Virus record (IMG/VR): IMGVR_UViG_3300018080_000328
Coordinates: 1 to 39,100 of that record
DNA from: a virus
DNA length: 39,100 nucleotides
Strand: one strand, 5' to 3'
Shown here: in pieces, positions 2,674 to 36,180 of the stretch
How the letters are laid out: each line of letters starts with the position of its first letter
Numbering within the stretch: position 1 is the first letter of the stretch
The notes under the pieces: generated by a model
The model's database searches: none
Told to the model about the DNA's origin: nothing
The model's input: the letters and a program-made list of their open reading frames with translations, nothing else
Program-made: the position numbers and the translations under genes

Positions 2674-3411
2674 CTACTCGCCGGGTTCTTCCGGCTCCTC
2701 CTGATCTCGTGCAACATCAATCTGGGCGTCGCACAGCCTGAGCATCTTCCGGCCGAAGTGGACAGGGCCGAGTGCGGCGAGAAGGAAACAGGCCGTGCCC
2801 ACCCACGGGATCGCCGTGCGTAAAGCCGTCATGCCAGATCCCAGGTTCACGGCTTCCTGGGATTGCTCGACGACGAGACTGAAGCAAACGAGTTGTGAAA
2901 CCGGGTCGGCCGAGGTGGCGCCGCTCGTGGCACCCGACGCAATGTAGCCCAACGGGGTGACGAGTGCGATTCCGAAAACGAAAGCCAGCCAGAAGTACTT
3001 CACGATCTCCGGCGGGGTGCAGCACGGAATGACACCCCACAAGCACCTCTTTCTGACATCTTCGACCGGGTCGTCCTGGCCGCCGGGCCACCCGGCCATC
3101 ATGATCTCCTTAAGACCGAAGCGATGCTCAAGCAGCGAAACCTGCAACGTCAAGTATCGGTAGTTGTAGCCCAGCGTGAGTGCGTAGAACGCCCCCACAA
3201 GAAACACGAGAAACACGCCGTAGGTCCCCACGATGAGCGCACCGGCGCGGTAAGGCGAGTCAACCTGGAATAACCATACGAATCCGCCCAACGTTGAAAC
3301 CAGGATCAGGACGAAACGCACGATGTCCTGTTCACGGTGGCGCAGGGCATTCAGGTAGGCCTTGTGCATATTGAGCAACGCCTCGTCACCGCATTTCCGT
3401 TCGTCGCTCAT
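2674..3411 (-). CDS. four-helix membrane protein
   Basis: This 245-aa protein begins with a charged amphipathic stretch (MHKAYLNALRHREQDIVRF) and has four likely membrane helices, at about 29-50, 54-82, 139-158 and 193-220. A roughly 55-residue cytoplasmic loop with several Cys and Pro (CLWGVIPCCTPPEIV) lies between helices 2 and 3. The tail is acidic (QEEPEEPGE). I do not recognise a named family. It starts 24 bases after the methyltransferase stop codon and precedes the two-helix protein by 11 bases. The tight linkage to a restriction-like gene set suggests a membrane effector or anchor, but a transport or housekeeping role cannot be excluded. Confidence 0.7.
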   Translation of the reverse strand: MSDERKCGDEALLNMHKAYLNALRHREQDIVRFVLILVSTLGGFVWLFQVDSPYRAGALIVGTYGVFLVFLVGAFYALTLGYNYRYLTLQVSLLEHRFGLKEIMMAGWPGGQDDPVEDVRKRCLWGVIPCCTPPEIVKYFWLAFVFGIALVTPLGYIASGATSGATSADPVSQLVCFSLVVEQSQEAVNLGSGMTALRTAIPWVGTACFLLAALGPVHFGRKMLRLCDAQIDVARDQEEPEEPGE

Positions 3412-3435
3412 CGCAAGGTCCCTCCCTGCAATACG

Positions 3436-6400: not shown

Positions 6401-7197
6401 AAGAGGCCATAGGTGACCGTCTGGGCGTACATGTCGGCGAAGTCGTCGGGCGTGAGGTCGTGGATAAGGGCTTCCCGGAAGGCCTTGTAGAGTTTCGTGA
6501 GGGGGCCATTTTCGGTTTCGACCTCAAGGACGGTGCCCGCGCGGTTGCGGATGCGGGTGGCGAGTTCGGCCATGCGCTGGGCGAGTTTCTTCGAGGTCCT
6601 GATGACCTCGCGGGGGCGGAGGGTGAAGGCCGAACCCCAGGTGGTGCGCCAGGCGTCCAGGTCCTCTTCGTCGTCGGGCCAGCGGAGTCTCTCTTTGAGG
6701 GTCTCGTGGGCGTGGTCGAGGTGGAGGACGGTGTCCTTATCGTCCCAGGCGAGGACGCGGAGGGCCGGGAGGGTGCTGGGCTCGTCGCTCTCGGAGAAGT
6801 GGGCGAAACTGATCACCCGGTCGCCGGATTCGCCGTAGGAGGAGACGAAGAGGAGGTCGTGCATCTGCCAGTACGGGCGTTCGGCCTTCTGGGCGGAGTG
6901 GCGTTTCCTGACGACCAGGGACCGAAGGATTCGGCGCATGACGACGATGGGGAGGCGCCGGGGCTCGAACTTGATGAAGAAGATGCCCCAGGGCTGGCTG
7001 TCGGTGAGGGGGCGGAGTTGCTTGATGTCCTGGATCTTGGCCGCGACCTTGGCGTCGGGGACGAGTTCCTCGGGCTCGTACTCGAAGGTGAGGTCGTTGA
7101 AGTCGTCGGTTTCAATGGGCCAGTCGAGTTCGTCGCGGAGATACTTGACGAGGGACGGGAAGGTGTGGATGGAACGGAGACGTTCGGCTTCGGACAT
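3436..7197 (-). CDS. Eco57I/type ISP-like adenine-specific DNA methyltransferase
   Basis: This is a 1253-aa N6-adenine methyltransferase with its own target-recognition region. A helical N-terminal region (1-360) leads to GVFFTPRPVVSFIV (367-380), the SAM-binding motif DPACGTGTF (430-438) and the catalytic NPPY (562-565). The later part (TADVNVFDIRQGVAIGL, PYLYRPFDIRFIYYD) matches the specificity half of type ISP/Eco57I-like enzymes. No nuclease motif was seen in it, unlike true type ISP enzymes. After a low-complexity linker (about 1130-1180) comes a C-terminal winged-helix-like domain (RDDAIRDAARHLGF to the end). The start at 7197 was chosen because the family N-terminus begins there and GGGAG lies 8 bases upstream; the frame stays open further upstream but overlaps the 75-aa gene. 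It probably protects host DNA from the nuclease-helicase encoded upstream. Confidence 0.88.
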   Translation of the reverse strand: MSEAERLRSIHTFPSLVKYLRDELDWPIETDDFNDLTFEYEPEELVPDAKVAAKIQDIKQLRPLTDSQPWGIFFIKFEPRRLPIVVMRRILRSLVVRKRHSAQKAERPYWQMHDLLFVSSYGESGDRVISFAHFSESDEPSTLPALRVLAWDDKDTVLHLDHAHETLKERLRWPDDEEDLDAWRTTWGSAFTLRPREVIRTSKKLAQRMAELATRIRNRAGTVLEVETENGPLTKLYKAFREALIHDLTPDDFADMYAQTVTYGLFAAACSRPAGLVAENLADMVPVTNPFLKELLGTFLEVGGKRGHIDFDELGVNEVVDLLTDKDTDLEAIKRDFGDLRQEEDPVIHFYELFLSEYDRKKKIQRGVFFTPRPVVSFIVRSVHEILQTEFGLEDGLADTTTWGEMAERHEDLEIPEGVSPDEPFVQILDPACGTGTFLVEVIELIHKTMVEKWRAEGHMDLNEIPRLWNQYVPEHLLPRLYGFELMMAPYTICHMKAGLKLNATDYRFGANERLRVYLTNSLEPPHDFSDRFEFDAPALAHEARAVNTVKRHQRFTAVIGNPPYSNFGQMNKNPFILDLLQDYKHGLGEKMLNLDDDFIKFVRYAQSQIESTQVGVLGMITNSTYIDGITHRRMRESLMEVFPLIRILDLHGSVIKSQAPPDGTADVNVFDIRQGVAIGLLAKRPESSRRLISHADLLGSRESKYRRLSTSSCARMTWNTLSPQPRYFFFIPRNTTCDAEWEIFFPINEAMPVATSAVQTKRDALFIDFDLEALSSRMQEVLAHGPKDNVAAKYPLEPSAGWKPDCLNGVQFSEDRIRPYLYRPFDIRFIYYDDQILGRSRKAVFRHLLRPNLALATLRQTVDNAFRHVFCTQWICDINLVIGHHVSDRVFPLYLYEGSDLSGSEGPRQNFSRDFLAAVRRSLSLGDVNHHSPAAELEAEDIFHYAYAVLHSPSYRSRYAEFLKTDFPRLPLASSMCLFRALADFGSDLAALHLLQSPRLTEPLANYDGTRDPKVEKVAYADQTVWLDKKQTCGFVGVPEGVWNFYVGGYQVCHKWLKDRRGRALSDEDIEHYQKIIVAISETIRIMGEIDEVIEEHGGWPDAFITEPMDTESEEASRTVSAPSPPAKAAKKPDSGKGNFALRSDTRTVTGRLDLEDSKAGTRQQSAKKAPAGKAKSGSVSIKDFDRDQLKGALLEVVGTDWIERDDAIRDAARHLGFARTGKRIKAAFKSAITGLLRQNRLESAGTQIRRA

Positions 7198-7234
7198 TGG
7201 TGCGGCTCCCGTGCGATGTACGCGGTCGGCTATC

Positions 7235-7462
7235 TCAATTGCCGCGACGGCTCTTGCGTTCGAGGCGGCTGGCCTTGCCGGCGCTGGCGAGGGCCGTCCA
7301 GAGATCGTGCCGGATGATGACACGGCCGGTGCGGGCGATGAACTCGGCGTAGAGTTGTTCGAAGTCATCGGTGTACGGCAGATCGTCGCGTGTGCGTTTG
7401 GCCGCGTGGTAGAGTTCGGCCAGGACTTCCTTGTGTGCGTTGCTGAGCCGGATCTTTGGCAT
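7235..7462 (-). CDS. 75-aa protein between helicase and methyltransferase
   Basis: This short basic protein (starting MPKIRLSNAHKEVLAELYHA) is probably all-helical with no membrane segment. It contains TRDDLPYTDDFEQLYAEF and an Arg/Lys-rich tail (ASRLERKSRRGN), which would suit binding DNA or a large partner. No family is recognised. It lies 30 bases after the helicase stop and 37 bases before the methyltransferase start, so the three are one transcription unit. Its position between the two large enzymes suggests an accessory or bridging subunit; that is inference. The coding frame differs from both neighbours and has a normal start. Confidence 0.7.
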   Translation of the reverse strand: MPKIRLSNAHKEVLAELYHAAKRTRDDLPYTDDFEQLYAEFIARTGRVIIRHDLWTALASAGKASRLERKSRRGN

Positions 7463-7492
7463 GGTGCCCCCCTGGCTATTCTGCGACCGCCC

Positions 7493-10400
7493 CTACGCGA
7501 GTTCCATCCAGGCCTTGAGGGTCGGCTTGACACCGACGGGGGCTTGGACCTTCCGAAGGTAGTTCTTTTTGATGTGGGCGTCCATCTTTTTGCGGATGTC
7601 GGCGAGGGTCTCCTGCTCGGCCTTGCAGACGCGGGGCGTTTCGGGCGTGGAACGGATGAGTTCGATGATCTCGCCGGGGTCCTCAATAACGTTCTCCGTG
7701 GCGAGGTCGTACAGATACCACTTCACGTCGCCGGCCTCGGTTGTCCATTCGCCGCTCTCGGGGTCCTTTGCGGGACGGGCATAGCAGAAGAACACCCCGC
7801 GCGACTCGGGCTGCGGGGCCTCCTTGCCGCTGAAGACACGGTTCGGGAAGCGGTTCAGGTGTTCTTCCAGGTCGGGGTCCCCGGCCAGGAGGCGCTGGAG
7901 TTCGAGGCTCATCTCCTCAGTCTGCGACTTGGTTCCCTCGCACTGGCGGACGAAATCGCGGAGCACGTCGTAGTCGTCGTCCGGCCGGAGGAGTTTGCCG
8001 TGCTCGATGCCGAAGGTCTTACTGATGCGAAGGGTCTTGTGGGTGACGGTCTTGTAGAGGCTGAGGAGTTCGTTGAGTTCGTCGGGCGGCAGGAAGTTGT
8101 AGTAGCGGATTTCGTGCCGGGTGCCCTCCTGGTCCGGATGGTCGGCCAGGAGTTGGGCCTCGGTTTCAGGGTCCATGCGGCGGTCGATACGGCCGATGCG
8201 CTGCATGAGGCGGACGGGGTTCCAGTGGAGGTCGTAGTTGATGAGGCGGCGGGCGTCCTGGAGGTTCAGTCCCTCGGACAGGACATCGGTGGAAATGAGG
8301 ATGCGGATTTCGTCCTGGCCGCGGGCTTGGAGTTCGGCGCTGGAGGAGCCGTTGTAGTACGGCGAGAAGCGTTTGAGGATACGGGTCTGGTGCCGGCCGG
8401 CGGTCTCGGAGTCGATGGCGGCGACGCCTTCAACGTCGTTCTCGCGGAGTTGCCCGGCGAGGTAGCGGGCGGTGTCCTTGAACTCGGTGAAGATGAGGAC
8501 CTTCTGCCGCTGGAGGGCCACGTCGCCCAGGCCGCTGAGGTGGCCGCGGAGGAGTTGGATGAGGGCCTGGAGTTTCTTGTCCTGCCTGGGTTGGAACCTG
8601 GCGAGTTCCTTCAGAAACTCGGCGATGGTGTCGAGGTCGTCCAGGGCGTCGCCCAGGATGGCGGGGATGTTGAACTTGTCGGGATCGAGCCGGTCTGCCG
8701 AGGCGTGCTCGAAGAACTCGGGTTCGACGACGTCTTCGTCGGCGAGTTCGAGTTGGAGGTCGTCGCCGAAGAGGTGGGCCTGCTGATTCGGGTCGTACCC
8801 GGTGATCTCCTTGTTGCGGATGAGCCACTTCTGGAGGCGGTCCTGGTCGTGCTTCTCTTCCGCATGCACGTGGTAGAAGGCGAGGAGTTTCTTCATGAGC
8901 GTGCGGCAGGAGGCGGTGAACGCCTCGACCGAACTCTCGAACCGCTTAAGGAAGGCCGTGCGGATGAGGCGGACGACCTGGCGCTGGCGGCCGACCGTCA
9001 TCGCCAGTTCCTGCTCCTCCAGGTCGGCCGGGTCGCCCGTGTAGTGCTCCCAGGGGTAGTACATGGTGAGGGAGAAGAGCGGCCTCTGGCGATGGAAGGC
9101 GTCCTCCACCATGGCGAGGATCTTGCCGTAGGTCTGCTTCACGGAGTACGGGACGACCTTGGGCGCCGCGGCTTCGGGGAAGAGGACTTCGCCGTCCTCC
9201 TCTGCGAGCGAGTCTTTGACGAACGAGCGGCTGCGCTGGACGACGAGTTCCTGGAACAGGGAGTCGTCGCGGAGGATTTCCTCGGCCTCGGCGAGGTTCG
9301 TGTCCGGCCCGTCGGGGTCGCCGTCTCCGTTGCCGCCGAGTTGCTTCTCGCGCTCACGGGCGGCCCGTTCAACGGCCTTCTCCAGCGTGCGGATGTGGCC
9401 GGGCAGGGAATGGATGCCCAGCGGGGCCATGTTGAAGTAGTCCGCCTCGCCGCGGGAGAAGAGTTCGACCATGTGCTGGAAGTCGGTCAGACGGTTGTTG
9501 ACGGGCGTGGCCGTTAGCAGGTAGACCTGCTTGCCCTCGCAAATGTCGAACATGCGCCAGTAGCGGCTGCGGCGTTCGCCCTCCCTCTCGCCCTTCAGGC
9601 CCCGGTTGCGGAAGTGGTGGCCCTCGTCGATGACGACCACGTCCGCCTGTTCGCGCATCTGATTCAACTGCATGGGGATTGGCCGCGTCTTCCGCTGCAG
9701 GTCGGTATGGTTGTAGATGCGGAAGGGGAGGAAGCCGCCCAGGAGTTCCGGCACGTAGCGGGCGATCTTGTCTTCCCAGACGGACTCGCGAGCGGCCTTG
9801 GGCACGAACAGGGCGACCCGTTTGCCCTCGTGCATCACCAGACGCTCGATGAGCATCAGGCCGATGAACGTCTTGCCGAGACCGACGCCGTCGCACAGCA
9901 GCGCGCCGCCGTAATTCCTCGCCCGCTTCAGGAGGCCCTCATAGCCTTTCTTCTGGTAGGAGGCGAGGATGGGGTACATCCTGGACTCCGAGTTCTCCCA
10001 TTCGCCGGCGGTCATCTCGTGGCTGCGGAAGAACTCCTGGAGGGCCTTGGCGTACACCTCGAACGGCGTGTACTCGCGGGTGTGCCGCTCGAAGGTGCGG
10101 AGGATTTGGGGGGTGACGTCCTCGGCCTTGTCCCAATGCTCCTCGTACCACTCCTGGAGGGCACTGACTTGGCGGCCGGTGATCTGGACGTTCAGTTCAA
10201 CGTTCTCGGTCAGGCCGGGATAGGTGAGGTTGGACGATCCGACGAGGCCGAAGGCGCCGATGACCTCCTGGCGAGCGTGCGTGATGCAGGCCTTGGCGTG
10301 GAAGCGGTCCTTCCGGTAAACGCGGCAGGCGATCTTGCCCGAGCGGATGGCCTCGACGATGGCCGGCACGCCGGCGAGGAAGTCGTTCGTCTCCTTCTCG

Positions 10401-10699
10401 TGTTCCAGGCTGCCGTCCAGACGACTCGTGATCTTGCCGAGGGCCTCGGTGAATAACTGCTTGGTGCGGGGGGCGACCTCGTCGCCCATGAGGATGCGGA
10501 TCTGATCGACCTTCTGCCACTCTTCATTGAGAGCCAGGAGGGCGCCGACCTCGAAGAAGCCGGTGGCGATGTCCATCTGCCGGGACAACTGGCACCACTC
10601 GTGGAGGTACTGGAGGACCTTCCAGTCGGCGTCGCTGTTATCGACGATGAAGAGTTCGCTGCCAGCGCGTTTGGGAGTTGTCTTGCTCGTCTTCGCCAT
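7493..10699 (-). CDS. PLD-nuclease/SF2 helicase fusion protein
   Basis: This is a 1068-aa protein. The N-terminal domain (about 10-200) is a phospholipase D-type nuclease with one catalytic set, H134-x-K136 followed by GSSN (154-157), so it probably works as a dimer, as BfiI does. The rest is an SNF2/SF2-type helicase: Walker A GVGLGKT (271-277), DEGH (358-361), TATP (396-399), motif V STDVLSEGLNLQ (803-814) and motif VI QRIGRIDRR (833-841), with a long insertion and a 220-residue C-terminal extension. It is likely the restriction or DNA-translocating component paired with the downstream methyltransferase. GGGAGG lies about 9 bases before the ATG. It is the first gene of the operon. The DISARM genes drmA/drmB and the BREX genes pglZ/brxC are not present, so it is not a standard form of either. 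Domain assignment is firm; the role in restriction is inferred. Confidence 0.88.
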   Translation of the reverse strand: MAKTSKTTPKRAGSELFIVDNSDADWKVLQYLHEWCQLSRQMDIATGFFEVGALLALNEEWQKVDQIRILMGDEVAPRTKQLFTEALGKITSRLDGSLEHEKETNDFLAGVPAIVEAIRSGKIACRVYRKDRFHAKACITHARQEVIGAFGLVGSSNLTYPGLTENVELNVQITGRQVSALQEWYEEHWDKAEDVTPQILRTFERHTREYTPFEVYAKALQEFFRSHEMTAGEWENSESRMYPILASYQKKGYEGLLKRARNYGGALLCDGVGLGKTFIGLMLIERLVMHEGKRVALFVPKAARESVWEDKIARYVPELLGGFLPFRIYNHTDLQRKTRPIPMQLNQMREQADVVVIDEGHHFRNRGLKGEREGERRSRYWRMFDICEGKQVYLLTATPVNNRLTDFQHMVELFSRGEADYFNMAPLGIHSLPGHIRTLEKAVERAAREREKQLGGNGDGDPDGPDTNLAEAEEILRDDSLFQELVVQRSRSFVKDSLAEEDGEVLFPEAAAPKVVPYSVKQTYGKILAMVEDAFHRQRPLFSLTMYYPWEHYTGDPADLEEQELAMTVGRQRQVVRLIRTAFLKRFESSVEAFTASCRTLMKKLLAFYHVHAEEKHDQDRLQKWLIRNKEITGYDPNQQAHLFGDDLQLELADEDVVEPEFFEHASADRLDPDKFNIPAILGDALDDLDTIAEFLKELARFQPRQDKKLQALIQLLRGHLSGLGDVALQRQKVLIFTEFKDTARYLAGQLRENDVEGVAAIDSETAGRHQTRILKRFSPYYNGSSSAELQARGQDEIRILISTDVLSEGLNLQDARRLINYDLHWNPVRLMQRIGRIDRRMDPETEAQLLADHPDQEGTRHEIRYYNFLPPDELNELLSLYKTVTHKTLRISKTFGIEHGKLLRPDDDYDVLRDFVRQCEGTKSQTEEMSLELQRLLAGDPDLEEHLNRFPNRVFSGKEAPQPESRGVFFCYARPAKDPESGEWTTEAGDVKWYLYDLATENVIEDPGEIIELIRSTPETPRVCKAEQETLADIRKKMDAHIKKNYLRKVQAPVGVKPTLKAWMELA

Positions 10700-10812: not shown

Positions 10813-11082
10813 TCAACTTTCCAACTTCAGGCTTTTGACGCGGGGCATGAAGACCTCGCGGCAGCGGGCCGTTGTTTGGACCATCCAGTCGAGAACGTTC
10901 GGCCAGGTATCTCGGTCCCACACGTCGGCGTCGCGCTCGACGGCGATGATCTTGTCTCAATTCTCGGGGTGGGGATTCCACTGCATTCCGAAACCCAATT
11001 CCTTCTCAATCTCGTCTTTGTGTTCGAGGAGCTGTTCAAGCGATTCTTCGGCCACAGTGCTGTGCAGGTACACACGCACGCC
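10813..11082 (-). pseudogene. C-terminal remnant of a DUF4268 protein with an internal stop
   Basis: Reading the minus strand from 11082 gives VRVYLHS, then EESLEQLLEHKDEIEKELGF, GMQWNPHPEN, an in-frame TGA, then DKIIAVERDADVWDRDTWP, NVLDWM and EVFMPRVKSL before the normal stop at 10813-10815. The pattern of an aligned K/D-x-IE-x-x-LG, a conserved W, a W-P stretch and a final F-x-P-R is that of the C-terminal half of DUF4268, a domain often attached to PD-(D/E)XK nuclease-like regions in restriction proteins. The N-terminal half is missing: coding similarity stops where the partial first CRISPR repeat begins. The gene was probably a neighbour of the restriction-like operon on the same strand. 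The truncation and nonsense codon make it non-functional. Confidence 0.6.
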
Positions 11083-14000
11083 AATCGCCGCTCAGGTACA
11101 CTTCAGCTTGTTGTCCAGCGTCGGCGAGACGCGCTGTGGCTTGACGGGAATCGCCGCTCAGGTACACTCGACGGCCTTCTCGGCGCTCTTGGCGGCCTGC
11201 TGTGGCTTGACGGGAATCGCCGCTCGGGTACACTGCTCGACCGCGCGGTGCAGCGCACACAGGCGCTGTGGCTTGAAGGGAATCGCCGCTCGGGTACACT
11301 GTTTCGACCAGCGCCGGTTCTCCGCTTCCCGCTGTGGCTTGAAGGGAATCGCCGCTCGGGTACACTTTCCTGGGGCGGCACGAGACGCCGACCGGGGCTG
11401 TGGCTTGAAGGGAATCGCCGCTCGGGTACACTCGTCTCCAGGGCCAGGCTGCACCCCGTCTCGCTGTGGCTTGAAGGGAATCGCCGCTCGGGTACACTGC
11501 CGCTCATGCTCGCGCCGGACCCACTCCTGCTGTGGCTTGAAGGGAATCGCCGCTCGGGTACACTGCGCACTCTGTCAGGTCCCCTTTCATCGCCGCTGTG
11601 GCTTGAAGGGAATCGCCGCTCGGGTACACTTTGAAGGGTCAGTTGGCTTTGCCGAAGATCGCTGTGGCTTGAAGGGAATCGCCGCTCGGGTACACTCGGG
11701 CGTGAACACGTCATCCGTCACGTCGGGCTGTGGCTTGAAGGGAATCGCCGCTCGGGTACACTGCACCGACCTACGAGTACGCGTGTACGCGGGCTGTGGC
11801 TTGAAGGGAATCGCCGCTCGGGTACACTCGTGGACGCCGACGAGACCGTCCGATCGAGGCTGTGGCTTGAAGGGAATCGCCGCTCGGGTACACTTCAGCA
11901 GCCACTCGGCCTCGGCCAGCTCCGCTGTGGCTTGAAGGGAATCGCCGCTCGGGTACACTCCTCCTCCGGGTCGTAAGCGTGTGCCACTAGCTGTGGCTTG
12001 AAGGGAATCGCCGCTCGGGTACACTCTTCCCAGTCCTCCGCCGTCTCGCAGATGTGCTGTGGCTTGAAGGGAATCGCCGCTCGGGTACACTGACGTGGGA
12101 GATGGACCGGGTGGAGAGCGAGCTGTGGCTTGAAGGGAATCGCCGCTCGGGTACACTGAAACGCCCCCAGGCAGAGTTCCTGCCCGAGCTGTGGCTTGAA
12201 GGGAATCGCCGCTCGGGTACACTTGCGGTCGGCGCGGTCCGCCCAAGGCAAGGGCTGTGGCTTGAAGGGAATCGCCGCTCGGGTACACTCTTTTTACCCT
12301 TTCGATACCGTCTACCAAGCTGTGGCTTGAAGGGAATCGCCGCTCGGGTACACTCCTATGCGCCCGAAGTACATCAACCGTCTGGCTGTGGCTTGAAGGG
12401 AATCGCCGCTCGGGTACACTCGGAGGTGCGTGGAAATGACGCCCTCCAGGCTGTGGCTTGAAGGGAATCGCCGCTCGGGTACACTTGCACGCCAGGCGTG
12501 GATCCAATACGAGAAGCTGTGGCTTGAAGGGAATCGCCGCTCGGGTACACTTTGCCTCTACCCGCTACACTGGTGGTGGGCGCTGTGGCTTGAAGGGAAT
12601 CGCCGCTCGGGTACACTAAAGGGTAGAGCCATGACTGCTGAGCAACAGCTGTGGCTTGAAGGGAATCGCCGCTCGGGTACACTACGACCAGGCGACAGAA
12701 ACCTGGCGACCGGGCTGTGGCTTGAAGGGAATCGCCGCTCGGGTACACTGCCAGGGGATCGTACGCCCGCTTGGCCGTCGCTGTGGCTTGAAGGGAATCG
12801 CCGCTCGGGTACACTGGCAGGTGACGACGGTGACGGCTCAGTTCCGCTGTGGCTTGAAGGGAATCGCCGCTCGGGTACACTCCAGGCCATTGCGGCCATG
12901 TTCGAGTAACCGCTGTGGCTTGAAGGGAATCGCCGCTCGGGTACACTAAAAGCCTCCGAGAGGAAGCGGCCTCCCGGGCTGTGGCTTGAAGGGAATCGCC
13001 GCTCGGGTACACTGACCCGGCACAAGACGCCACAGCAGGCGTAGCTGTGGCTTGAAGGGAATCGCCGCTCGGGTACACTCCCCGCAACGTCGAGGTGCTG
13101 CTCCGGGGCGCTGTGGCTTGAAGGGAATCGCCGCTCGGGTACACTGCACGCCGCGGGGCTGGGAGACGCGCTGGGCTGTGGCTTGAAGGGAATCGCCGCT
13201 CGGGTACACTGATTCAGGGACTGGAGCGTCGCCATCAGGAGCTGTGGCTTGAAGGGAATCGCCGCTCGGGTACACTGCGTCCTCCTCGGTCGCCGCGTTC
13301 CGGACGGCTGTGGCTTGAAGGGAATCGCCGCTCGGGTACACTGATGGAGGTCACCGACATGAGCGGCGGGCGGCTGTGGCTTGAAGGGAATCGCCGCTCG
13401 GGTACACTTTGAAGGAGACGAGAGACATGGACAGGAAAGCTGTGGCTTGAAGGGAATCGCCGCTCGGGTACACTAGCGGCAATCGGCACGAATGGCGTCT
13501 GGCCGCTGTGGCTTGAAGGGAATCGCCGCTCGGGTACACTCGGCCCGTCGCGCCAGCGCGGTCAGCAGGCGCTGTGGCTTGAAGGGAATCGCCGCTCGGG
13601 TACACTTGAGCGGCTTGTCGGGCCGGGCACAGATGGGCTGTGGCTTGAAGGGAATCGCCGCTCGGGTACACTCGCCGGCGAGCTCGGCTCGGCGTCGTTC
13701 GGGCTGTGGCTTGAAGGGAATCGCCGCTCGGGTACACTTGCAAAGGCGATTCGGGTGGCGAACAGCCAGCTGTGGCTTGAAGGGAATCGCCGCTCGGGTA
13801 CACTCGTATCGCTCGCGGACTCCGGTACCATGGAGCTGTGGCTTGAAGGGAATCGCCGCTCGGGTACACTACCGTCGATTTGTGTGTTAATTGTGTTAAG
13901 CTGTGGCTTGAAGGGAATCGCCGCTCGGGTACACTCCTTGAGCACCTCGACCCGCGCCCAGACCTGCTGTGGCTTGAAGGGAATCGCCGCTCGGGTACAC

Positions 14001-14988
14001 TTCACGAACCCCGGCACGCTCGTCGCGGCGGGCTGTGGCTTGAAGGGAATCGCCGCTCGGGTACACTTCTGCTCGCCGGGTTTCGGGCGCTTCCAGGCTG
14101 TGGCTTGAAGGGAATCGCCGCTCGGGTACACTCCCCCGAAATCGACCACGCGCCGCCGAGGTGCTGTGGCTTGAAGGGAATCGCCGCTCGGGTACACTCC
14201 GTATAAGCTGCTGCCATGATCGACATAGGCTGTGGCTTGAAGGGAATCGCCGCTCGGGTACACTCAAGGCCGGGTGGCACGTGCGCGAGGCGGAGCTGTG
14301 GCTTGAAGGGAATCGCCGCTCGGGTACACTTCATCACGAGGAACACGCTCCGCCTCGGCAGCTGTGGCTTGAAGGGAATCGCCGCTCGGGTACACTTGGC
14401 TCGTGCTGCACGATCGGTTGACGAACGCTGTGGCTTGAAGGGAATCGCCGCTCGGGTACACTACGCCGCCGTCAGGGTCGGCGACTGGATCAGCTGTGGC
14501 TTGAAGGGAATCGCCGCTCGGGTACACTCAACCAGGCCCAGAGGGTCTCGACCATCTCGCTGTGGCTTGAAGGGAATCGCCGCTCGGGTACACTGAGCCG
14601 GTCGCCACAGCCTCGGCCGGGTGGCTGTGGCTTGAAGGGAATCGCCGCTCGGGTACACTCGGTGTGAGCAGCCGAAAGGGCGGCAGGGGCTGTGGCTTGA
14701 AGGGAATCGCCGCTCGGGTACACTGATTCCGTGGATCGACGCGGTGACCAGGTTGCTGTGGCTTGAAGGGAATCGCCGCTCGGGTACACTTCGACGCTTC
14801 GGTCGACGATGCCGTGGAGCGCTGTGGCTTGAAGGGAATCGCCGCTCGGGTACACTCAGCACCTGCCGCGTCAGGCCGAGCGACGCGCTGTGGCTTGAAG
14901 GGAATCGCCGCTCGGGTACACTGAGCCGGTCGCCACAGCCTCGGCCGGGTGCGCTGTGGCTTGAAGGGAATCGCCGCTCGGGTACACT
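11067..14988 (+). CRISPR. type II-C CRISPR array, 60 repeats and 59 spacers
   Basis: A 36-bp repeat (begins GCTGTGGCTT, ends GGGTACACT) recurs from 11133 to 14988 with spacers of 29 or 30 bp, giving a period of 65-66. An additional partial repeat at 11067-11102 matches only in its last 20 bases. Repeats 2 (11133) and 3 (11199) have a C in place of an A in TTGAAGGG; repeats 1 and 2 have CTCAGG in place of CTCGGG; all later repeats look identical. Variant repeats at the left end mark it as the old end, so growth is probably at the cas2-side end. Strand was assigned from the tracrRNA: its anti-repeat pairs with the plus-strand repeat RNA, so crRNAs read towards cas2, opposite to the cas genes, as known for Neisseria and Campylobacter type II-C loci. 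Spacers 54 and 59 are the same sequence. Confidence 0.98.
11273..11300 (+). promoter_or_regulatory. repeat-embedded crRNA promoter (representative copy, repeat 4)
   Basis: Within each repeat, TTGAAG (repeat positions 9-14) is separated by 16 bases from TACACT (positions 31-36, the repeat end). This resembles a -35/-10 pair pointing into the following spacer, so transcription would begin several bases inside each spacer. Type II-C arrays of Neisseria and Campylobacter are known to use such repeat-internal promoters. Repeats 2 and 3 have TTGACG, closer to consensus. The match is 4/6 for each element; transcription itself cannot be seen. Confidence 0.55.
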
Positions 14989-15038: not shown

Positions 15039-15344
15039 TCAGAAAAGGGCCAGTTGCTGCGGTGCAGACTCGGCCTTACGCCGTTTTCTGCCTTCGAAGA
15101 TGACCATTTTCCCAAACTGCTTGTCAGTGACGGCCACCAGCCGGACCTGTCCCTGGGCCGGAAGCCAAACACGAATGCGCCGGCAGAAGGTTCGGCTCCG
15201 TTCCTCGGACGCACAGTATCTCGCGTAAACGGAGAACTGGAGCATCTGGAAGCCTTCTGCAAGCAGCGCTTTCCGAAACCGCGTATAGGCCCGTCTGGCT
15301 TTCTTCGTGTCCACCGGCAAATCGAACATCGCAAAGAGCCACAC
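15039..15344 (-). CDS. cas2: CRISPR-associated endonuclease Cas2
   Basis: This 101-aa Cas2 forms, with Cas1, the integrase complex that inserts new spacers. It starts MWLFAMFDLPVDTKKARRAY with the conserved Asp at residue 8, followed by FRKALLAEGFQMLQFSVYAR and VTDKQFGKMVIFEG, as in other type II Cas2 proteins. The frame is open further upstream, but the GTG at 15344 was chosen because it gives the family N-terminus and has GGAG 9 bases before it. The first ATG would be at 15329 and would remove part of strand 1. It lies 40 bases after the cas1 stop and just before the array. Confidence 0.95.
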   Translation of the reverse strand: MWLFAMFDLPVDTKKARRAYTRFRKALLAEGFQMLQFSVYARYCASEERSRTFCRRIRVWLPAQGQVRLVAVTDKQFGKMVIFEGRKRRKAESAPQQLALF

Positions 15345-15384
15345 GGCCTTATACTCCGATGGGCAGTTACGCCGGGGCGACACA

Positions 15385-16275
15385 TCAGATCTCCGGCAAA
15401 GCCAGTTTCTGCGAACCATCCTGCAGAGCGGCCACCAAGGAAGAGGCTGTCCGGGCCAGCGTGTTGAACAGGGTGCGGGATTCTCCTTCCAGTGTGAGGC
15501 GAGCCGTACAAATGCTGAGGAGCGTCTGTTTGGTGGCTGGATCGAGAGGGGCTTTGGGACCCTGTGCGGTGACAATTTGGCATACGCGCACATCCACCAT
15601 GGGCCGAAACGGCTCCATCATGTCATCGGCCATACAAAACGCATTATATCGGTTATGATGGTGAATGCCAAGGCTGGGGTGCAAGCCTGCCGCGCAAATC
15701 GCTCTGGCGACAACCGCTCGCAGAACGGCATAGCCGTAGTTCAGAAGCCGGTTCTGATCATCCCGGTTTGTGTCCCGGCGGAACGTGATATCCCCGAAGA
15801 GAGACGGCCAGTAGCGCCGAGACGCCTGCGCCTCTACGTTTGTCGCATCGCCCGATTGAACAGTCCGGGCCAGGGCCACGAGGCCGTGATCGTCGCCGTG
15901 CAAACGCGCGAGCAGGCGACCCTGGGCGGCCACCTTAGCCGTAACAAGTTGCTGCCAGAGGCGCTTGCAGCGCGGCTTCGTAGTATTGGCTTGCAAGGCA
16001 AATCGCTCTGCCTGGACATAGTTGGCCTCGATGGGCAAGAGCATGCCGACCGGCAGGTGCCGACGGTCACATACCACCAGCGCGCCGCCGTATTCGACGA
16101 GCCCCGAAAGAACTGCCTGGGTATAGGTTACCTGCGGATGCGAGACAACTAAAGCGGCCACTTCGCCGAGGGGAAACTTCGCTACAGTTTCGCCGTTCCG
16201 CTCGATGACGAGACAACAGCGGTCTACTCGGAGGTAGGCCGATTCCTGCGCAACATCCAGGACGTGTTTAGTCAT
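15385..16275 (-). CDS. cas1: CRISPR-associated integrase Cas1
   Basis: This 296-aa Cas1 is the catalytic subunit of the spacer-acquisition complex. The metal-binding residues are visible: E148 in NVEAQASRRYW, a His of GIHHHNRYN (205-207), and D217/D218 with E221 in MADDMMEPFRP. The length and the LGIHHHN and EPFRP signatures are those of type II Cas1. Its ATG overlaps the end of cas9 by eight bases (ATGACTAA), so it is translated by coupling to cas9. There is no cas4 or csn2, which with cas9-cas1-cas2 order defines subtype II-C. Confidence 0.97.
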   Translation of the reverse strand: MTKHVLDVAQESAYLRVDRCCLVIERNGETVAKFPLGEVAALVVSHPQVTYTQAVLSGLVEYGGALVVCDRRHLPVGMLLPIEANYVQAERFALQANTTKPRCKRLWQQLVTAKVAAQGRLLARLHGDDHGLVALARTVQSGDATNVEAQASRRYWPSLFGDITFRRDTNRDDQNRLLNYGYAVLRAVVARAICAAGLHPSLGIHHHNRYNAFCMADDMMEPFRPMVDVRVCQIVTAQGPKAPLDPATKQTLLSICTARLTLEGESRTLFNTLARTASSLVAALQDGSQKLALPEI

Positions 16276-19200
16276 TGGCCCAGCGTATTTCGCCGAGGGG
16301 AGTGACCGTGACCTTTTGGGCGTTCCGTTTGCGCAGGGTATCCAGGGCTGGCGATTGCCAGTCCCCGGCAGTTCTGATATCGGCTTTTTGGCGGGCGTCC
16401 TTTACATCAACATACTCGACGCGCGTCGCCCCATTCCGCTGTTTGCTGACACTTCGTATTGAGTAAAGTTGCCGTCCGCCGTCGTCGGCGTCGAGTTCGA
16501 TGGTATCTCCCGGGGCAAGGGAGAAGACGAACTGGCCTTCGGGGTGGGTGCGGTTGACGACGGGTTCGTGTCGGCGCAGGCGCTGGAGAGCGTCGAGGCG
16601 CGTCACCATGCGGCCGATCCACTTCTTCCGGCCCTTCTTGCCTTCGACTTCGAAGATCTCGAGATGGTGATTGCCGCTGGGCATGACGTGGCGGGCCGAT
16701 GGACCGTCACCAACCGTCACGGTTTCGGCGGCCTTGCGGATGCGCACGCTGTGGATTGGGATGGATCGGCCGTCCCTGGTGGTGATGGCCGGGTGATTCT
16801 TCGGGGCTCCGAAGGCCTTCTTCGGCGTCGTGCCGAGGGCGCGGAGTTTGTCTCGGACGAGTTCGCGGACGGTGGGGTCGACGATGGCGTCGCCCTCGAT
16901 CTGTTTCGTAGTGAGACTTTGAAGGGGCTCGCGAATGTGGACCCAGCGATTGCCCTTGGCGTCCTGCTTCTCGGGGCTGTAGAGTTTCTCGGCATGCAGC
17001 GGACCGCCGACCTGGCGTTTGGGGCGGTGGGAAACGTTGATGGCCTCGATGGCCTCGACGGCCTGATCGAAGAAGCCGGGCCACGGGTCTTCGATGCGTT
17101 CAAAAAGATGACCTCCGCCTTCGCGGGGCCGCTGGGCAGCATCGGCCAGCGCCTTGACAGTAGCGGGGTTTGTCAGCGCGACGACCAGGGCGTCCACGGC
17201 GTGGTGGCGGTGGTCGCTGCGGGTTTTCTTGCCATCCTCGCCCAGGATGTGATTCAGATACCAGGCACCGCGCAGGAAGCCGGTGGCTGTGCCTCGCACG
17301 GCCTGGACCCTGCGCCTGCCCTCCGCATCCCAAAGGCCGCCGTAGAGAAGGCCGAGGTATTGAAGGGCCTGTCGGGATGCGTAGCGCGTGTCGTTCATCT
17401 GCTGCGTGACGAAGTCGGCTTGGTCTTGGAGGTCTTCGGCGATGAGTTGGAAGCGGCGAAGTTTCTCCCTCACAAGCCCGTTGTCGCCCTTGAAATTCTT
17501 TACCCGCTCGAGAATTGCTTCCCATGTCTCGGCATTACCGGCGTACGCCTCGGCCGGCGTACGGTTGCGCTTACGGTTTCGGTTCTCCGCCACCTCGCAA
17601 AGCGTCTTGTTCAGAAACGAATTGTCCAGGCATTGACTGAAGGGCACGATATGCTCGATATCGAATTGGGGACTGTCGCCGAACATGGAACCCATGGAAA
17701 TCGGCCGGCCCGTGTAGGGGCACTGCCAGCCACACTCTTCCGCAAGGAGTACCCGTTCGATGTCCGACCGACGCGGATTCTGGATGCCGGCCTCCTCGGC
17801 CAACCGCCTGGCGGCATCCTGGCGCTGTTTCTCCCGGCGACGGTTGCGCCGCGAGGATTCCTGCCGCTGGCTCTTGGATCGCCTCAGGTCGCGGGCGAGT
17901 TCAACGCGGATGACTTCAGGTTTCCCGTATTTCCGCACGATGGCGTTGACGACCTTCCGCAGTTCCGTAAGCGCACGGTGGACGGCCGGGTTCTTGAGGT
18001 GCGGCAGTGCCTGGGCGACGGCCGGGAGGGATTCGACAGGTTCGCGCTGCTGATGAAACTCGCCGTAGACCTCCTTCACAGCCGTAGCGTAAGGAACACC
18101 ATCCTCCAGGTAAGGCAGCAACTTCCGCATGGCCCGGCGAGAAAGCCGGGCGTAGTCAGATTCGAGTTCCGTTTCCGCGAACCGGACCGCGGCGTCCGGA
18201 TCGAGCCTCCAGACCTCCCGGCCACGGCGCTCCAGCGCATCGCGTTTCTGGATGCTGCGAAGGTCCTGGATGATCTGCTCGCGGTCTTCGTCGGAGAAGG
18301 TCCACCACCGCTCGCTGAAGATGTCTGCCAGTTGGGCATTCGTGCGGTTCCCTACGAATCGTTTCTCGCCCCCCTCCTCGAAGGCGAACTTGCAGCGGGC
18401 GCTGATGCCCAGGAGTTTCTTGGCATCCTTGAAACCCAGGTCGCCTTCTCGCTCCAACCGGTCGAGCAAGGCGTCCCGCTCGTCCGCGGTCAAGTAGCGG
18501 TGTTGGCCGTCCGGCTCGATGACGCTTGTATTCGTCACCTGTTGGACGAGGCGGAAACGCTGTGCGAGCGGAAGCGCAAGCGGCGCACGGCGCGAGTTCG
18601 GCTCGAACTCGCAAGGGCCGACCAGCCCCTTGGCACTCTTAAGGGAGCGTTGGAAGAAGATGGTGTCGTGCAACCGGCCCTTGAGGTCGGGCGTGAGGCG
18701 GTCCGGGTCGTGCGACGCCTGGGCGTTCCAGATCGCGTCGAACTCGTCTGTGTGCATCTGGCGGGAGGTCCAGCGGGCACGGATGCGCTGCTCGCACGGA
18801 TCGAGACCGGCGAGGTATTCGCCGAGAGTGCGGGCGCCAGCTTCCTCAATGTTGCGAGCAAGTTCGCCGATGGCCTCGCGGACCTGGCCTTCGTCCTCGT
18901 CGTCGCGCCGGGGCCGGCGACGGTTGCTGGCAAAGCCGCGGTGCTGGGCGAGGTGGTAGATGGCCCGGCCAAGTTCGTAGGGTTCGATTCTCTCATCCAG
19001 GGCTCGCGCCCGGAGGTAGAACGGCAGCGTGTGTGCGCGGCGTCGGCGGGAATCGGAGTCGGGCGGGAGAGATCCGACGTGCTTTTCGGCTAGTTGGCGG
19101 TCCAGTTTCGGGAGGACTTCGTCGGCCTCCCCTTCCGGAAGCAGTCCCGCCTCTTGCAATTGGTGTAGCAGCCGCTTCTTGCGCCGGGCCCGGCGGTCGT

Positions 19201-19417
19201 GCTGACGGCGCATAAGACGCGCCCTCCGCCGGGGCGCGGCCCGTGATTCGCCGCGGCCTGACTGGAAGTTTCCCTCGACGCCTGCGTCGAAAACGCGGGT
19301 GCCGCTGTCAGCAATGCCAGCCGGTTCTTCGTTCTCAAGACGGACGGCCGCCCATCCCACGGAATTGGCACCGATGTCCAAGCCGAGAATGTAGTTACAG
19401 CGTTCCTGACGCGGCAT
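16268..19417 (-). CDS. cas9: Cas9 endonuclease, compact type II-C
   Basis: This is a 1049-aa RNA-guided DNA nuclease that cuts both strands of targets matching its crRNA, using tracrRNA. All catalytic parts are intact: RuvC-I with D14 (LGLDIGANSVGWA), an Arg-rich bridge helix (about 58-92), RuvC-II with E506 (VIRVELARDL), an HNH domain with D586, E588 and H589 (FDIEHIVPFSQCLDNSFLNK) plus N612, and RuvC-III with H739 and D742 (DHRHHAVDALVVAL). The PAM-interacting C-terminal region covers about 800-1049. The size is typical of the short II-C group. The ATG at 19417 has AAGGAG 7-8 bases upstream. Its predicted promoter lies within the tracrRNA gene, on the opposite strand. The PAM cannot be read from the sequence. 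Confidence 0.98.
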   Translation of the reverse strand: MPRQERCNYILGLDIGANSVGWAAVRLENEEPAGIADSGTRVFDAGVEGNFQSGRGESRAAPRRRARLMRRQHDRRARRKKRLLHQLQEAGLLPEGEADEVLPKLDRQLAEKHVGSLPPDSDSRRRRAHTLPFYLRARALDERIEPYELGRAIYHLAQHRGFASNRRRPRRDDEDEGQVREAIGELARNIEEAGARTLGEYLAGLDPCEQRIRARWTSRQMHTDEFDAIWNAQASHDPDRLTPDLKGRLHDTIFFQRSLKSAKGLVGPCEFEPNSRRAPLALPLAQRFRLVQQVTNTSVIEPDGQHRYLTADERDALLDRLEREGDLGFKDAKKLLGISARCKFAFEEGGEKRFVGNRTNAQLADIFSERWWTFSDEDREQIIQDLRSIQKRDALERRGREVWRLDPDAAVRFAETELESDYARLSRRAMRKLLPYLEDGVPYATAVKEVYGEFHQQREPVESLPAVAQALPHLKNPAVHRALTELRKVVNAIVRKYGKPEVIRVELARDLRRSKSQRQESSRRNRRREKQRQDAARRLAEEAGIQNPRRSDIERVLLAEECGWQCPYTGRPISMGSMFGDSPQFDIEHIVPFSQCLDNSFLNKTLCEVAENRNRKRNRTPAEAYAGNAETWEAILERVKNFKGDNGLVREKLRRFQLIAEDLQDQADFVTQQMNDTRYASRQALQYLGLLYGGLWDAEGRRRVQAVRGTATGFLRGAWYLNHILGEDGKKTRSDHRHHAVDALVVALTNPATVKALADAAQRPREGGGHLFERIEDPWPGFFDQAVEAIEAINVSHRPKRQVGGPLHAEKLYSPEKQDAKGNRWVHIREPLQSLTTKQIEGDAIVDPTVRELVRDKLRALGTTPKKAFGAPKNHPAITTRDGRSIPIHSVRIRKAAETVTVGDGPSARHVMPSGNHHLEIFEVEGKKGRKKWIGRMVTRLDALQRLRRHEPVVNRTHPEGQFVFSLAPGDTIELDADDGGRQLYSIRSVSKQRNGATRVEYVDVKDARQKADIRTAGDWQSPALDTLRKRNAQKVTVTPLGEIRWAND

Positions 19418-19428
19418 CAGAATTCTCC

Positions 19429-19457
19429 TTGACAGTGCGGTCCCGTTTGGTTATGAA
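19429..19457 (+). promoter_or_regulatory. tracrRNA promoter
   Basis: A perfect -35 TTGACA (19429-19434) and a -10 TATGAA (19452-19457) are separated by exactly 17 bases. Start would be near 19465, the first base before the anti-repeat. The promoter lies within the 5' leader of the divergently transcribed cas9 mRNA, 12 bases from the cas9 start codon. Confidence 0.75.
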
Positions 19458-19465
19458 GGCGTACA

Positions 19466-19494
19466 AGTGTACCTGAGCGGCGATTGTTCCTCAA
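19466..19494 (-). promoter_or_regulatory. predicted cas operon promoter inside the anti-repeat
   Basis: On the minus strand the anti-repeat reads like a CRISPR repeat and carries TTGAGG (19489-19494), a 17-base gap and TACACT (19466-19471), the same element pair as in the repeats. A start near 19459 would give cas9 a leader of about 41 bases. Its -10 occupies the first bases of tracrRNA, while the tracrRNA -10 lies in the cas9 leader, so RNA polymerase cannot occupy both at once. Confidence 0.5.
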
Positions 19495-19545
19495 GTCACA
19501 GTAAGGAACTTTCGTTCCGCGGGCAACGCCCCACGGGGCGCACCC

Positions 19546-19585
19546 GGCACCTCCTCCCGCAAGGATGAAGGGGTGCCTTCTTTTT
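19546..19585 (+). terminator. tracrRNA terminator
   Basis: GGCACCTC (19546-19553) pairs with GGGGTGCC (19570-19577), 8 bp with one G-U pair, followed by TTCTTTTT (19578-19585). A smaller hairpin GAAGG-GGTG-CCTTC (19567-19580) directly before the T5 run could serve as well. Confidence 0.75.
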
Positions 19586-19666
19586 GGGATGAGGACAAGG
19601 GGTTGAGGCCGAGGCTCTCCAGGTGTTTCGGTGAAGGGGTGCCTTCTTTTTGGGATGAGGACAAGG
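19566..19666. repeat. 35-bp direct repeat, two copies 66 bp apart
   Basis: The 35 bases at 19566-19600 recur without change at 19632-19666, with 31 different bases between them. Each copy contains a short palindrome (GAAGG/CCTTC) and a T5 run. The first copy includes the 3' arm of the tracrRNA terminator. On the minus strand the copy at 19632-19666 continues into CCGAAAC, resembling the GAAAC end of many type I/III CRISPR repeats, whereas the other copy does not. It could be a one-spacer mini-array of another CRISPR type, or a duplicated terminator. Confidence 0.6.
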
Positions 19667-19805
19667 TGACGTGTTCGACTGATGGCAAAGAAAAACGTAG
19701 CCACACGATATGTGCCCCCGGACCGCTAGGCAAGGCATTTACAAACAGAGCCTGCGGAATTGACCTTGCCTGTATTATACGCCTTCGTGTATGGTATCCG
19801 CGCCC

Positions 19806-31892: not shown

Positions 31893-34085
31893 TCAGTTTT
31901 CACCTTTTGCTTTCACCCCGCCCTTCGGGTCCTGAAGAGCACAACCAAAATCGTGGTAGCCACGCATCTGGACGCCCAGGCGGTTGAAGTCCGCCTCGGC
32001 CGTCTCGATGGTCGGCGACTCCTGGCCGTTCAGGAACGCGACCTCGATGACCGGCAGGTCCGCGGGGCTCGCCAGCAGATACCACGCCTTGGCGCTCGCG
32101 CCGGTGTACTGCGTGTTCGCCAGATACCGGCTGACCTCGGCCCGGAACTTGCCCTGGTGCGGGTTGGCGATCGGGTACTTCGTGTCCGCCGTGGTGTCGC
32201 GGATCTCCAGGCTCTTCTGCAGCGTGGTGGCGATGGCCGAGAGGGCCGTCGGCACGAGCAGCACCTGCGGCATGAGGCCGATGGGCTTGCCGTCGGCGTC
32301 CACCTGTTCCAGGAACTTGACCTCGGCCTTCGTCAGGCCGTCGACCGTCAGGGCCGTGTCCGCCCCCGTGATGTAGTTCTTGTTGGCGGTCTTGAAAAAG
32401 CCGGAGTTGTCGAGGAACACGGTCCAGAAGACGTCGTTGATCTTCAGGCCGGACCCCCGGCCGAGTTTCCGCGGCACGCTGGTGATGGCCCCCAGGTCGT
32501 CGTTGATGACGTCCCGCCGGTCGATGGCGAGCAGCAGGCCGTAGGTGTCGGCCTTGTTGGTGTAGGATTCCTCGCCGAGGGTGCCGTGCTTCAGTTCCCC
32601 GCCCGGGGCGACCGGCTTGTAGGTGTCGGCCCCGACGAGGCGGTAACTGGTCACGGTCTTGAAGTCGCTGACGTTGCGCACCGCGCAGATGTTCCGCCAC
32701 ACCCGCTCGACGCTGTAAAAACCTTCGAGGAGGAACTTGTTGGAGACGCCCGAGAGGATGCCGCCGATGTCGATGGTGGAGTACCCGGCCGCGGCGATGT
32801 CCTGGGCGAAGGCGTAGCGGAGGACCTCCCGGCTCGCCCGGAAGTTGCGGCCGGTGTAGCCGTTCGCCCAGGCGGCCTCCAGCAGGAGTTCCTGCAGGCC
32901 GATGCCGCCGCGGAACCGCTTGGCGGCGAGGTCCAGGGCCTGCTCCTCGCAGTGTTCCTCGGGTTTGGCGAGGCCCGCCGTCAGCATACACGCGGCCTCC
33001 AGGACCCCGCCCGTCACGCCGCGCTCCGGCACGTGGGCGGCCGGGGCCTTGGGCCGGCTGGCCCGGAGGACCTCCAGTTCGGTCCGCGTCCCGTCCCACC
33101 CCTCGCCGATGGCCTTCGCCTCGATGTCCGGGCGGGCGCCTGCGCAGATCTTGCGAATCGCGGCGATCCGCTGCGTCTCGGCGGCGGCCCGGCTGCGGAT
33201 GTCGGACACCGGGTCGGGCAAATCGTCCGTCGCGGCCGCGGCCGTCACGGTGGACGGCTCGGGCGGCGGGTCGGTCGCCCCCTCCGGTTCGGTCGGTGCC
33301 TCGGGCTTCTTCGGCTGCGGCTCGGCGCCGCCGTCGGCCTGGACCGGGTCGGTCCCCTTCTCCGTCTCCTGCGTCACGTCGGTCTGGGTCTCGTCCATCG
33401 CATGTCTCTCCTCACTGGCCGAGGCGGCCACGCTCACCCGCGCGCCGGCGTCGGCACCAAGGTCCACGAAACTGATCTCTCCCAGCGTCGCCCTCCGGAC
33501 GACGTTCACGGGGCCGGCGAGGTGCCGCCCGTTCACACGGACCCTCTGGCCGGCCTTGACGAACTCCACCTCCTCCACCCGCACCCCGATGGAGGCCTGC
33601 CACGGGAACCCGTTCTTCGCCGAGGCCACGACCTCGCGGGCGGCGTCGGTGTGGCGGGACACGACGCCGGTGGCAATCAGGCGGCCGCCGGTCACGCGGA
33701 TGGCGTCGGTGTGCCCCACGCCGGCCGAGGCGTCGTGGCCGAAGCGAATGGGCCGGTTCTGCGACGGGATGGCAAGACCTGCCAGGTCCACCACCACCGG
33801 ATACCGCCACCCGGCGATGCGCATCGGGCCGCCCGTGTAGGCGACCATCGTAAAGTGCGGCAGCGCCGCCTGGCCGTCGCCCTCCGCCGCGGCGGCCTCG
33901 ATCTCCAAAGCGCCCGGCTCGGAGAGCAGTTCCAGGGCCCCCTCGGCTCTGGCCTCGGCCTGCCGCTCGCAGACGGCCCGGCGCTGTTTCGGGTCGGGAT
34001 ACTCGCGGACCATGACCTCCTCGCCCATGCAGCGGTCGAGGAACGCCTCGTGGGCCTCGCCCTTGCGGCGCTCAGGCAGCGGCAC
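31893..34085 (-). CDS. prohead protease, scaffold and major capsid fusion
   Basis: One 730-aa polypeptide has three parts. Residues 1-230 are a prohead protease: catalytic-type His 117 (PIRFGHDASAGVGHTDAI) and Ser 165 (PWQASIGVRV), then LGEISFVDLGADAGARV. Residues about 230-300 are a charged, Pro/Glu-rich linker that could act as scaffold. Residues about 370-730 are a major capsid domain (QDIAAAGYSTIDIGGILSGV, PVAPGGELKHGTLGEESYTN, AIDRRDVINDDLGAIT, TKYPIANPHQGKFRAEVSRY). In many phages these are separate genes. Protease cleavage would release the capsid subunits. Its start overlaps the portal stop by 14 bases. Confidence 0.88.
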   Translation of the reverse strand: MPLPERRKGEAHEAFLDRCMGEEVMVREYPDPKQRRAVCERQAEARAEGALELLSEPGALEIEAAAAEGDGQAALPHFTMVAYTGGPMRIAGWRYPVVVDLAGLAIPSQNRPIRFGHDASAGVGHTDAIRVTGGRLIATGVVSRHTDAAREVVASAKNGFPWQASIGVRVEEVEFVKAGQRVRVNGRHLAGPVNVVRRATLGEISFVDLGADAGARVSVAASASEERHAMDETQTDVTQETEKGTDPVQADGGAEPQPKKPEAPTEPEGATDPPPEPSTVTAAAATDDLPDPVSDIRSRAAAETQRIAAIRKICAGARPDIEAKAIGEGWDGTRTELEVLRASRPKAPAAHVPERGVTGGVLEAACMLTAGLAKPEEHCEEQALDLAAKRFRGGIGLQELLLEAAWANGYTGRNFRASREVLRYAFAQDIAAAGYSTIDIGGILSGVSNKFLLEGFYSVERVWRNICAVRNVSDFKTVTSYRLVGADTYKPVAPGGELKHGTLGEESYTNKADTYGLLLAIDRRDVINDDLGAITSVPRKLGRGSGLKINDVFWTVFLDNSGFFKTANKNYITGADTALTVDGLTKAEVKFLEQVDADGKPIGLMPQVLLVPTALSAIATTLQKSLEIRDTTADTKYPIANPHQGKFRAEVSRYLANTQYTGASAKAWYLLASPADLPVIEVAFLNGQESPTIETAEADFNRLGVQMRGYHDFGCALQDPKGGVKAKGEN

Positions 34086-35571: not shown

Positions 35572-35621
35572 GCCTTGTCCTCCGTAGCCCGCCACAGGCG
35601 GGTAAACTCTGGCGAAGGGGG

Positions 35622-36063: not shown

Positions 36064-36108
36064 ATGGTGCCTTTCCGAGGGACAGCGTCAAGTGCTGGGG
36101 AGCTTGGC

Positions 36109-36145: not shown

Positions 36146-36180
36146 CTTTCGGACGATGAAGTCAAGTAGGAGGGAAATTC

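Follow-up and report, generated by a model that had tools for sequence, protein, structure and literature searches.

Promoters embedded in CRISPR repeats, from which individual crRNAs are transcribed, have been described in the type II-C arrays of Neisseria meningitidis and Clostridium cellulolyticum (PMC7038990) and of Flavobacterium (PMC10309648); in the literature on these repeat promoters we found no statement that an anti-repeat inherits such a promoter in the direction of cas9. In type II-A systems, tracr-L acts as an RNA guide that brings Cas9 to the cas promoter, Pcas (PMC11417352), and CreR has been described for types I-B, I-E, and V-A (PMC13131331). Bacterial bidirectional promoters form a class in which one symmetric -10 element is used on both strands, with starts typically 18, 10, or 23 bp apart; in all five tested in Escherichia coli basal firing was too low for competition between the two directions, and repression was seen only when one direction was strongly activated (PMC12825309). 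Little is known of how type II-C systems set the levels of cas9 and tracrRNA. For the locus analyzed here, a tracrRNA promoter and a cas promoter had been proposed to interlock at the anti-repeat and to exclude one another.

The window, which is the whole stretch of DNA that was analyzed, is an IMG/VR record of 39.1 kb that contains a bacterial type II-C CRISPR-Cas locus (Table 1). cas9, cas1, and cas2 form a single run on the minus strand, with cas1 and cas2 downstream of cas9, and neither the interval from cas2 to the array nor the region past cas9 was found to contain csn2, cas4, or any other cas gene; a gene content of cas9, cas1, and cas2 only is that of type II-C. The predicted tracrRNA, which is on the plus strand and points away from cas9, has an anti-repeat that should be able to pair with the repeat, as expected for the type: a linked repeat-tracrRNA molecule was predicted to fold at -98.9 kcal/mol (z -10.4), with the expected duplex first and then hairpins and the terminator. 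No Rfam family was matched anywhere in the window. The array has the opposite orientation to the cas genes, its repeat has the sequence GCTGTGGCTTGAAGGGAATCGCCGCTCGGGTACACT in crRNA orientation (plus strand), and 50 of its 58 spacers are 30 nt long. Every one of the 59 repeats ends in TACACT and has TTGAAG 16 nt upstream of it, and the arrays of relatives agree, with repeat ends that start with TA in 38 of 38 and fit TAnnnT in 36. The repeats thus appear to carry an embedded promoter with a -10-like element at the end of each.

Table 1. Coordinates of features in the window and, in the last two rows, in loci of Cas9 relatives
Feature	Position	Strand	Remarks
Defense island	1425-10699		beside the array
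Degenerate end unit and first full repeat	11067-11168		contain CTCAGG
CRISPR array	11067-14988	+ (crRNA strand)	59 full 36-nt repeats and a degenerate unit at 11067
Spacers sp53 and sp58	14595-14623; 14923-14951		near the cas2 end
ORF with cas2 as C-terminal half	15039-15593	-	TIGR01573, 4e-18
cas1 (type II)	15385-16275	-	TIGR03639, 7e-77
cas9	16268-19417	-	1049 aa, type II-C-like; TIGR01865, 2e-202; start at 19417
cas9 Shine-Dalgarno AAGGAG	19425-19430	-	7 nt before ATG; two bases in common with the tracrRNA -35
tracrRNA promoter -35, TTGACA	19429-19434	+	from sequence and family comparison
tracrRNA promoter -10, TATGAA	19452-19457	+	N17 after the -35; 8 bp before the anti-repeat
Predicted tracrRNA	19464-19592	+	anti-repeat, hairpins, and terminator GAAGGGGTGCCTTCTTTTT; both ends predicted
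Anti-repeat	19466-19501	+	on the minus strand resembles a full repeat
Repeat-type -10, TACACT, facing cas9	19466-19471	-	copied from the repeat end
-35-like TTGAGG, facing cas9	19489-19494	-	N17 to TACACT; not conserved in relatives
Duplicated 36-bp site	19564-19599; 19630-19665		35 of 36 bases identical
30-bp insert	19600-19629		with both copies (19564-19665), likely an ectopic spacer
Alternative cas9-ward candidate, TTGCCT-N17-TATCGT	19705-19733	-	upstream of the tracrRNA gene; score 9.0
Prophage head and terminase genes	31893-39074	-	
AbiEi/AbiEii-like pair	36181-37964	+	between the head and terminase genes
Solitary units in relatives	L077 3574-3633; L088 2717-2776; L128 3376-3435; L130 2916-2975; L131 3781-3840		oriented to cas9
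HicA/HicB-type genes in relatives	L130 about 2330-2830; L313 5011-5519; L312 627-1069; L315 5181-5384		also in L128

Several features of the surroundings may be recorded here. The defense island encodes an ArsR/Mrr_N protein, a type IIG-like restriction-methylation enzyme (1416 aa), and an SNF2 helicase with a PLD domain (1068 aa). The CRISPR locus borders a prophage, and an AbiEi/AbiEii-like pair lies among the structural genes of the latter. Within the array, sp53 and sp58 are identical over 29 nt. The sequence CTCAGG is common to the degenerate end unit, the first full repeat, and the anti-repeat; the remaining full repeats have CTCGGG, which forms a G-U wobble with the tracrRNA. The anti-repeat is more like the older repeats of the array.

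The original prediction placed TTGACA-N17-TATGAA in the cas9 leader as the tracrRNA promoter and TTGAGG-N17-TACACT, aimed at cas9, on the other strand inside the anti-repeat. All four boxes were confirmed, with exact sequence and coordinates. A strict scan of the window with the σ70 consensus accepted neither promoter, and scoring was therefore performed at the level of the family. Relatives of the Cas9 were gathered from genome contigs and whole genomes and their loci were retrieved; a search of viral contigs with Cas9 returned no relatives. Anti-repeats were placed in 58 loci, the window counted, of which 38 had an array of their own. On the strand opposite to cas9, in the stretch beyond the cas9-side end of the anti-repeat, the best promoter directed toward the tracrRNA has a -35 that begins with TTG in 52 of the 58 loci and with TTGAC in 32, its -10 ends 6-8 bp ahead of the first base of the anti-repeat in 46, and it outscores shuffled versions of that stretch (p < 0.05) in 44. 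Judged by this conservation of position and sequence, the tracrRNA promoter in the cas9 leader is genuine, in agreement with the prediction. With the -10 at this distance, the predicted tracrRNA start coincides with the anti-repeat or lies within one or two bases of it. Judged as promoters, the two in the window are of moderate strength. The -35 of the tracrRNA promoter also overlaps the Shine-Dalgarno sequence of cas9 (TGTCAAGGAG, 19425-19434), an overlap tighter than the one first reported. It is present in 10 of the 42 loci in which the start codon could be assigned with a Shine-Dalgarno sequence, namely the window and nine relatives (L014, L059, L061, L065, L066, L069, L071, L076, and L095).

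In every locus in which it was placed, the anti-repeat lies upstream of cas9 with its repeat sense on the cas9 strand. It is full-length repeat-like DNA, a likeness that had been noted for the window and that may reflect either an origin as a relic of the repeat or a constraint imposed by pairing. The window contains 60 instances of the pattern TTGA-N17..20-TACACT, 59 in the array repeats and one in the anti-repeat, as compared with 0.01 expected, and an origin of the anti-repeat boxes by chance was thus rejected. Since the pattern is restricted to the repeats and the anti-repeat, the boxes facing cas9 are inherited through likeness to the repeat, with one extra base in the anti-repeat (spacing N17 versus N16 in the array repeats).

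The two boxes differ in their fate among the relatives. At the -35 position, TTG is found in 29 of 38 repeats but in only 5 of 38 anti-repeats of the same loci (Wilcoxon test on -35 scores, p = 1.8e-5) and in 11 of all 58 anti-repeats, and the -35 scores of anti-repeats are no better than local background (p = 0.60); in the window, 5% of local positions equal or exceed the anti-repeat score. AAAAG or a comparable sequence stands in place of TTG in many loci, at a point where the repeat:anti-repeat duplex would form an internal loop. Mapped on the Cas9 tree, TTG switches between presence and absence seven times or more, and the sisters L060/L061 and L095/L133 are among the pairs that differ. 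Seven of the 11 anti-repeats with TTG have cas9 within 75 bp; enrichment of such anti-repeats in compact loci was rejected (p = 0.65-0.74). At the -10 position, the last six bases of the anti-repeat equal the end of its own repeat in 32 of 38 loci, and anti-repeats also copy repeat ends that have drifted to TACGGT, TAGAAC, TACAAC, or TATACT. The six -10 bases have changed in 11 of 228 cases, as compared with 4 of 228 for the six stem bases that precede them (p = 0.11). Where cas9 is no more than 75 bp away, TAnnnT is kept in 28 of 32 loci; where the distance is 150-950 bp, it is kept in 9 of 10 (p = 1.0), and L128, L130, and L131 have a HicBA-type gene pair between the anti-repeat and cas9. 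Loss of the elements from related anti-repeats with pairing retained, which the proposal itself had named as contrary evidence, was thus observed for the -35; the -10 is kept but is inseparable from pairing, because it follows the repeat end even where this makes a poor -10 and where cas9 is distant. By this comparison the boxes are not kept beyond the demands of pairing, and the proposal of the anti-repeat as a cas promoter did not hold as a conserved trait.

These results lead us to the following account, to which we assign a probability of about 0.68: a real tracrRNA promoter accompanied by a cas9-facing by-product that is unselected across the family and is not a tuned switch. A conserved σ70-type promoter in the 5' leader of cas9 would fire away from cas9, and the tracrRNA would begin at the first base of the anti-repeat. 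The other strand of the anti-repeat would bear a repeat-type -10, with a weak -35 in the window, because the anti-repeat must complement a repeat that has its own crRNA promoter; it is by mirroring the end of the repeat that anti-repeats would retain TACACT-like ends. The promoter-like sequence that faces cas9 would then be an inherited by-product of guide-RNA pairing, and looks mostly like this rather than like a conserved on/off switch. It may nevertheless drive some cas9 transcription in the window: weak local transcription from the anti-repeat is possible, and so is main cas9 transcription in loci like the window and several relatives. That the same 36 bp serve as pairing segment, RNA start, and working cas9 promoter in compact loci with both boxes (the window and 8 of 55 others) is rather unlikely.

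The fuller proposal, in which the anti-repeat is the true promoter of the cas9 operon and excludes the tracrRNA promoter so that tracrRNA and Cas9 are balanced, is improbable, but several observations speak for it. The box geometry is real, both cas9-facing boxes are present in 9 of 56 loci, and the anti-repeat is just 48 bp from the cas9 start in the window, a leader without room for another promoter. Moreover, of all positions upstream of cas9, the anti-repeat alone has a cas9-ward signal conserved in position (mean score 3.3 versus -7.9, sd 1.5), no other conserved cas9 promoter having been found in a positional search of the loci, and it is the best cas9-ward candidate in seven relatives (L059, L061, L102, L118, L122, L133, and L134). 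However, the -35 is gone in 33 of 38 anti-repeats with pairing intact, and the -10, not kept beyond pairing, is yet kept where direct use by cas9 is impossible. The geometry implies that, if both promoters fired, polymerase could not bind them simultaneously; the step from there to a balance of tracrRNA and Cas9 by mutual exclusion is unsupported, and the five bidirectional promoters tested in E. coli did not compete at basal levels (PMC12825309).

A cas9 promoter could instead lie upstream of the tracrRNA gene, as in the alternative candidate of Table 1, in which case the leader would be antisense to the whole tracrRNA and could be cut by RNase III. Within about 400 bp in the window the anti-repeat, with a score of 8.2, is only the second-best cas9-ward candidate after this one; no terminator-like site was found on the minus strand between the latter and cas9, and strong upstream candidates are present in L060 (TTGACA-N18-TACATT) and L078 (TTGACA-N19-TAAAAT). 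Such candidates are not conserved in position, though, and scores of this size are moderately frequent by chance in AT-rich loci, so that we consider this arrangement distinctly improbable.

The mirroring of the repeat end was also considered at the level of wobble pairs. Among the 38 loci, G-U wobble in the repeat/anti-repeat stem accounts for 5 of 241 cases in the last 13 positions versus 30 of 168 in the nine positions before, a mirroring that seems stricter than pairing alone obviously needs. The near-absence of wobble could reflect the needs of an RNase III substrate or a constraint at the level of DNA. A common DNA-level role, such as the binding of a regulator or integrase, that keeps the repeat end and anti-repeat identical is highly improbable: it would explain the lack of wobble, but there is no candidate binding protein and RNase III substrate needs could yield the same pattern.

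Two further findings are stronger. The first is located at the 3' end of the tracrRNA gene, immediately beyond the terminator. In the whole window, the sole exact repeat of at least 20 bp outside the array belongs to a duplication whose copies are 66 bp apart, which is the array period; a 36-bp site is present twice and flanks an insert of 30 bp. Because these lengths fit the 36-nt repeats and the usual 30-nt spacers, the segment is likely to be an ectopic spacer, in the form expected from Cas1-Cas2 integration outside the array. Two IMG/VR viral contigs (L135 and L136), found with a 21-nt pattern taken from the insert, match all 30 nt exactly and are phages related to the resident prophage of the window. 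Among the spacers of the array only sp21 matched related phages, as the ectopic insert did, and these matches yielded no PAM. Non-canonical integration is discussed in several papers. In vitro, a type II integrase is known to insert at sites outside an array (PMC6895254).

The second concerns seven relatives (L077, L088, L128, L130, L131/L313, L312, and L315) that have a solitary repeat in crRNA orientation between the tracrRNA and cas9. The guide next to the repeat matches sequence upstream of the cas9 of its own locus. (i) In four of the seven, the match includes a perfect seed of 10-16 nt. (ii) For the remaining three, ungapped alignment gives identity at 12-14 of the 16 PAM-proximal bases, and on visual inspection the match becomes longer when a 1-nt bulge near the repeat is allowed. 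The permutation p for the 16-base match is <0.05 in six units and 0.1 in L128. The matched sites have the PAM-like flanks CGGATATT, GGGATATT, AGGGTAAA, AGGATACA, AGAATACA, AGAGGACA, and CAGCAATG, and three of the sites (those of L088, L128, and L130) fall between -35 and -10 boxes that face cas9. It is possible that these units are a type II-C autorepressor of cas9 analogous to CreR or tracr-L; no report of a II-C autorepressor of this kind was found in the literature on such units. A HicBA-type pair adjoins the unit in five of the seven, lying between unit and tracrRNA where the tracrRNA was placed; Pfam identified HicA in L312 and in L313, which belongs to the genome of L131, sequence likeness identified it in L128 and L130, and L315 has a weak HicB-like hit. 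By analogy, the units possibly repress the toxin instead, as a CRISPR-controlled toxin-antitoxin pair of the CreTA type. This finding also indicates that cas9 is probably transcribed in these loci from an ordinary promoter some distance from the anti-repeat. Array spacers in general are not aimed at the cas9 promoter, as 819 array units, with the L130 solitary unit and its self-match set aside, gave one hit of at least 10 nt. A search of the 2.5 kb ahead of the window's own cas9 found no solitary repeat-like unit or matching guide that could act like tracr-L or a crRNA-like autorepressor.

The comparison reveals a fixed layout, in which the predicted tracrRNA start is exactly at the anti-repeat and its promoter is inside the cas9 leader, and it explains the promoter-like sequence that faces cas9 without selection for one. 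Pairing makes such a sequence unavoidable, and RNA data are therefore needed before an anti-repeat is taken for a cas promoter. The window locus resembles the known II-C systems with repeat-embedded promoters in that the -10-like element is formed by the last bases of the repeat and the array is opposite to the cas genes, and, as in C. cellulolyticum, the tracrRNA is encoded upstream of cas9 (PMC7038990). In C. cellulolyticum and N. meningitidis the repeats have an extended -10 at their end, whereas those of the window lack the TG extension and have TTG about 16 bp upstream. The proposed coupling of tracrRNA to cas9 expression recalls the autorepression of Pcas by tracr-L in type II-A (PMC11417352), and the solitary units of the relatives resemble both tracr-L and CreR (PMC13131331). 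With the bacterial bidirectional promoters of Warman, Grainger, and colleagues (PMC12825309), the locus shares opposite-strand starts within one short stretch and an arrangement in which one RNA polymerase would block the other. Unlike them, it has two separate -10 elements 8 bp apart, with predicted starts ~5 bp apart, and would thus fall outside the class defined by a shared symmetric -10.
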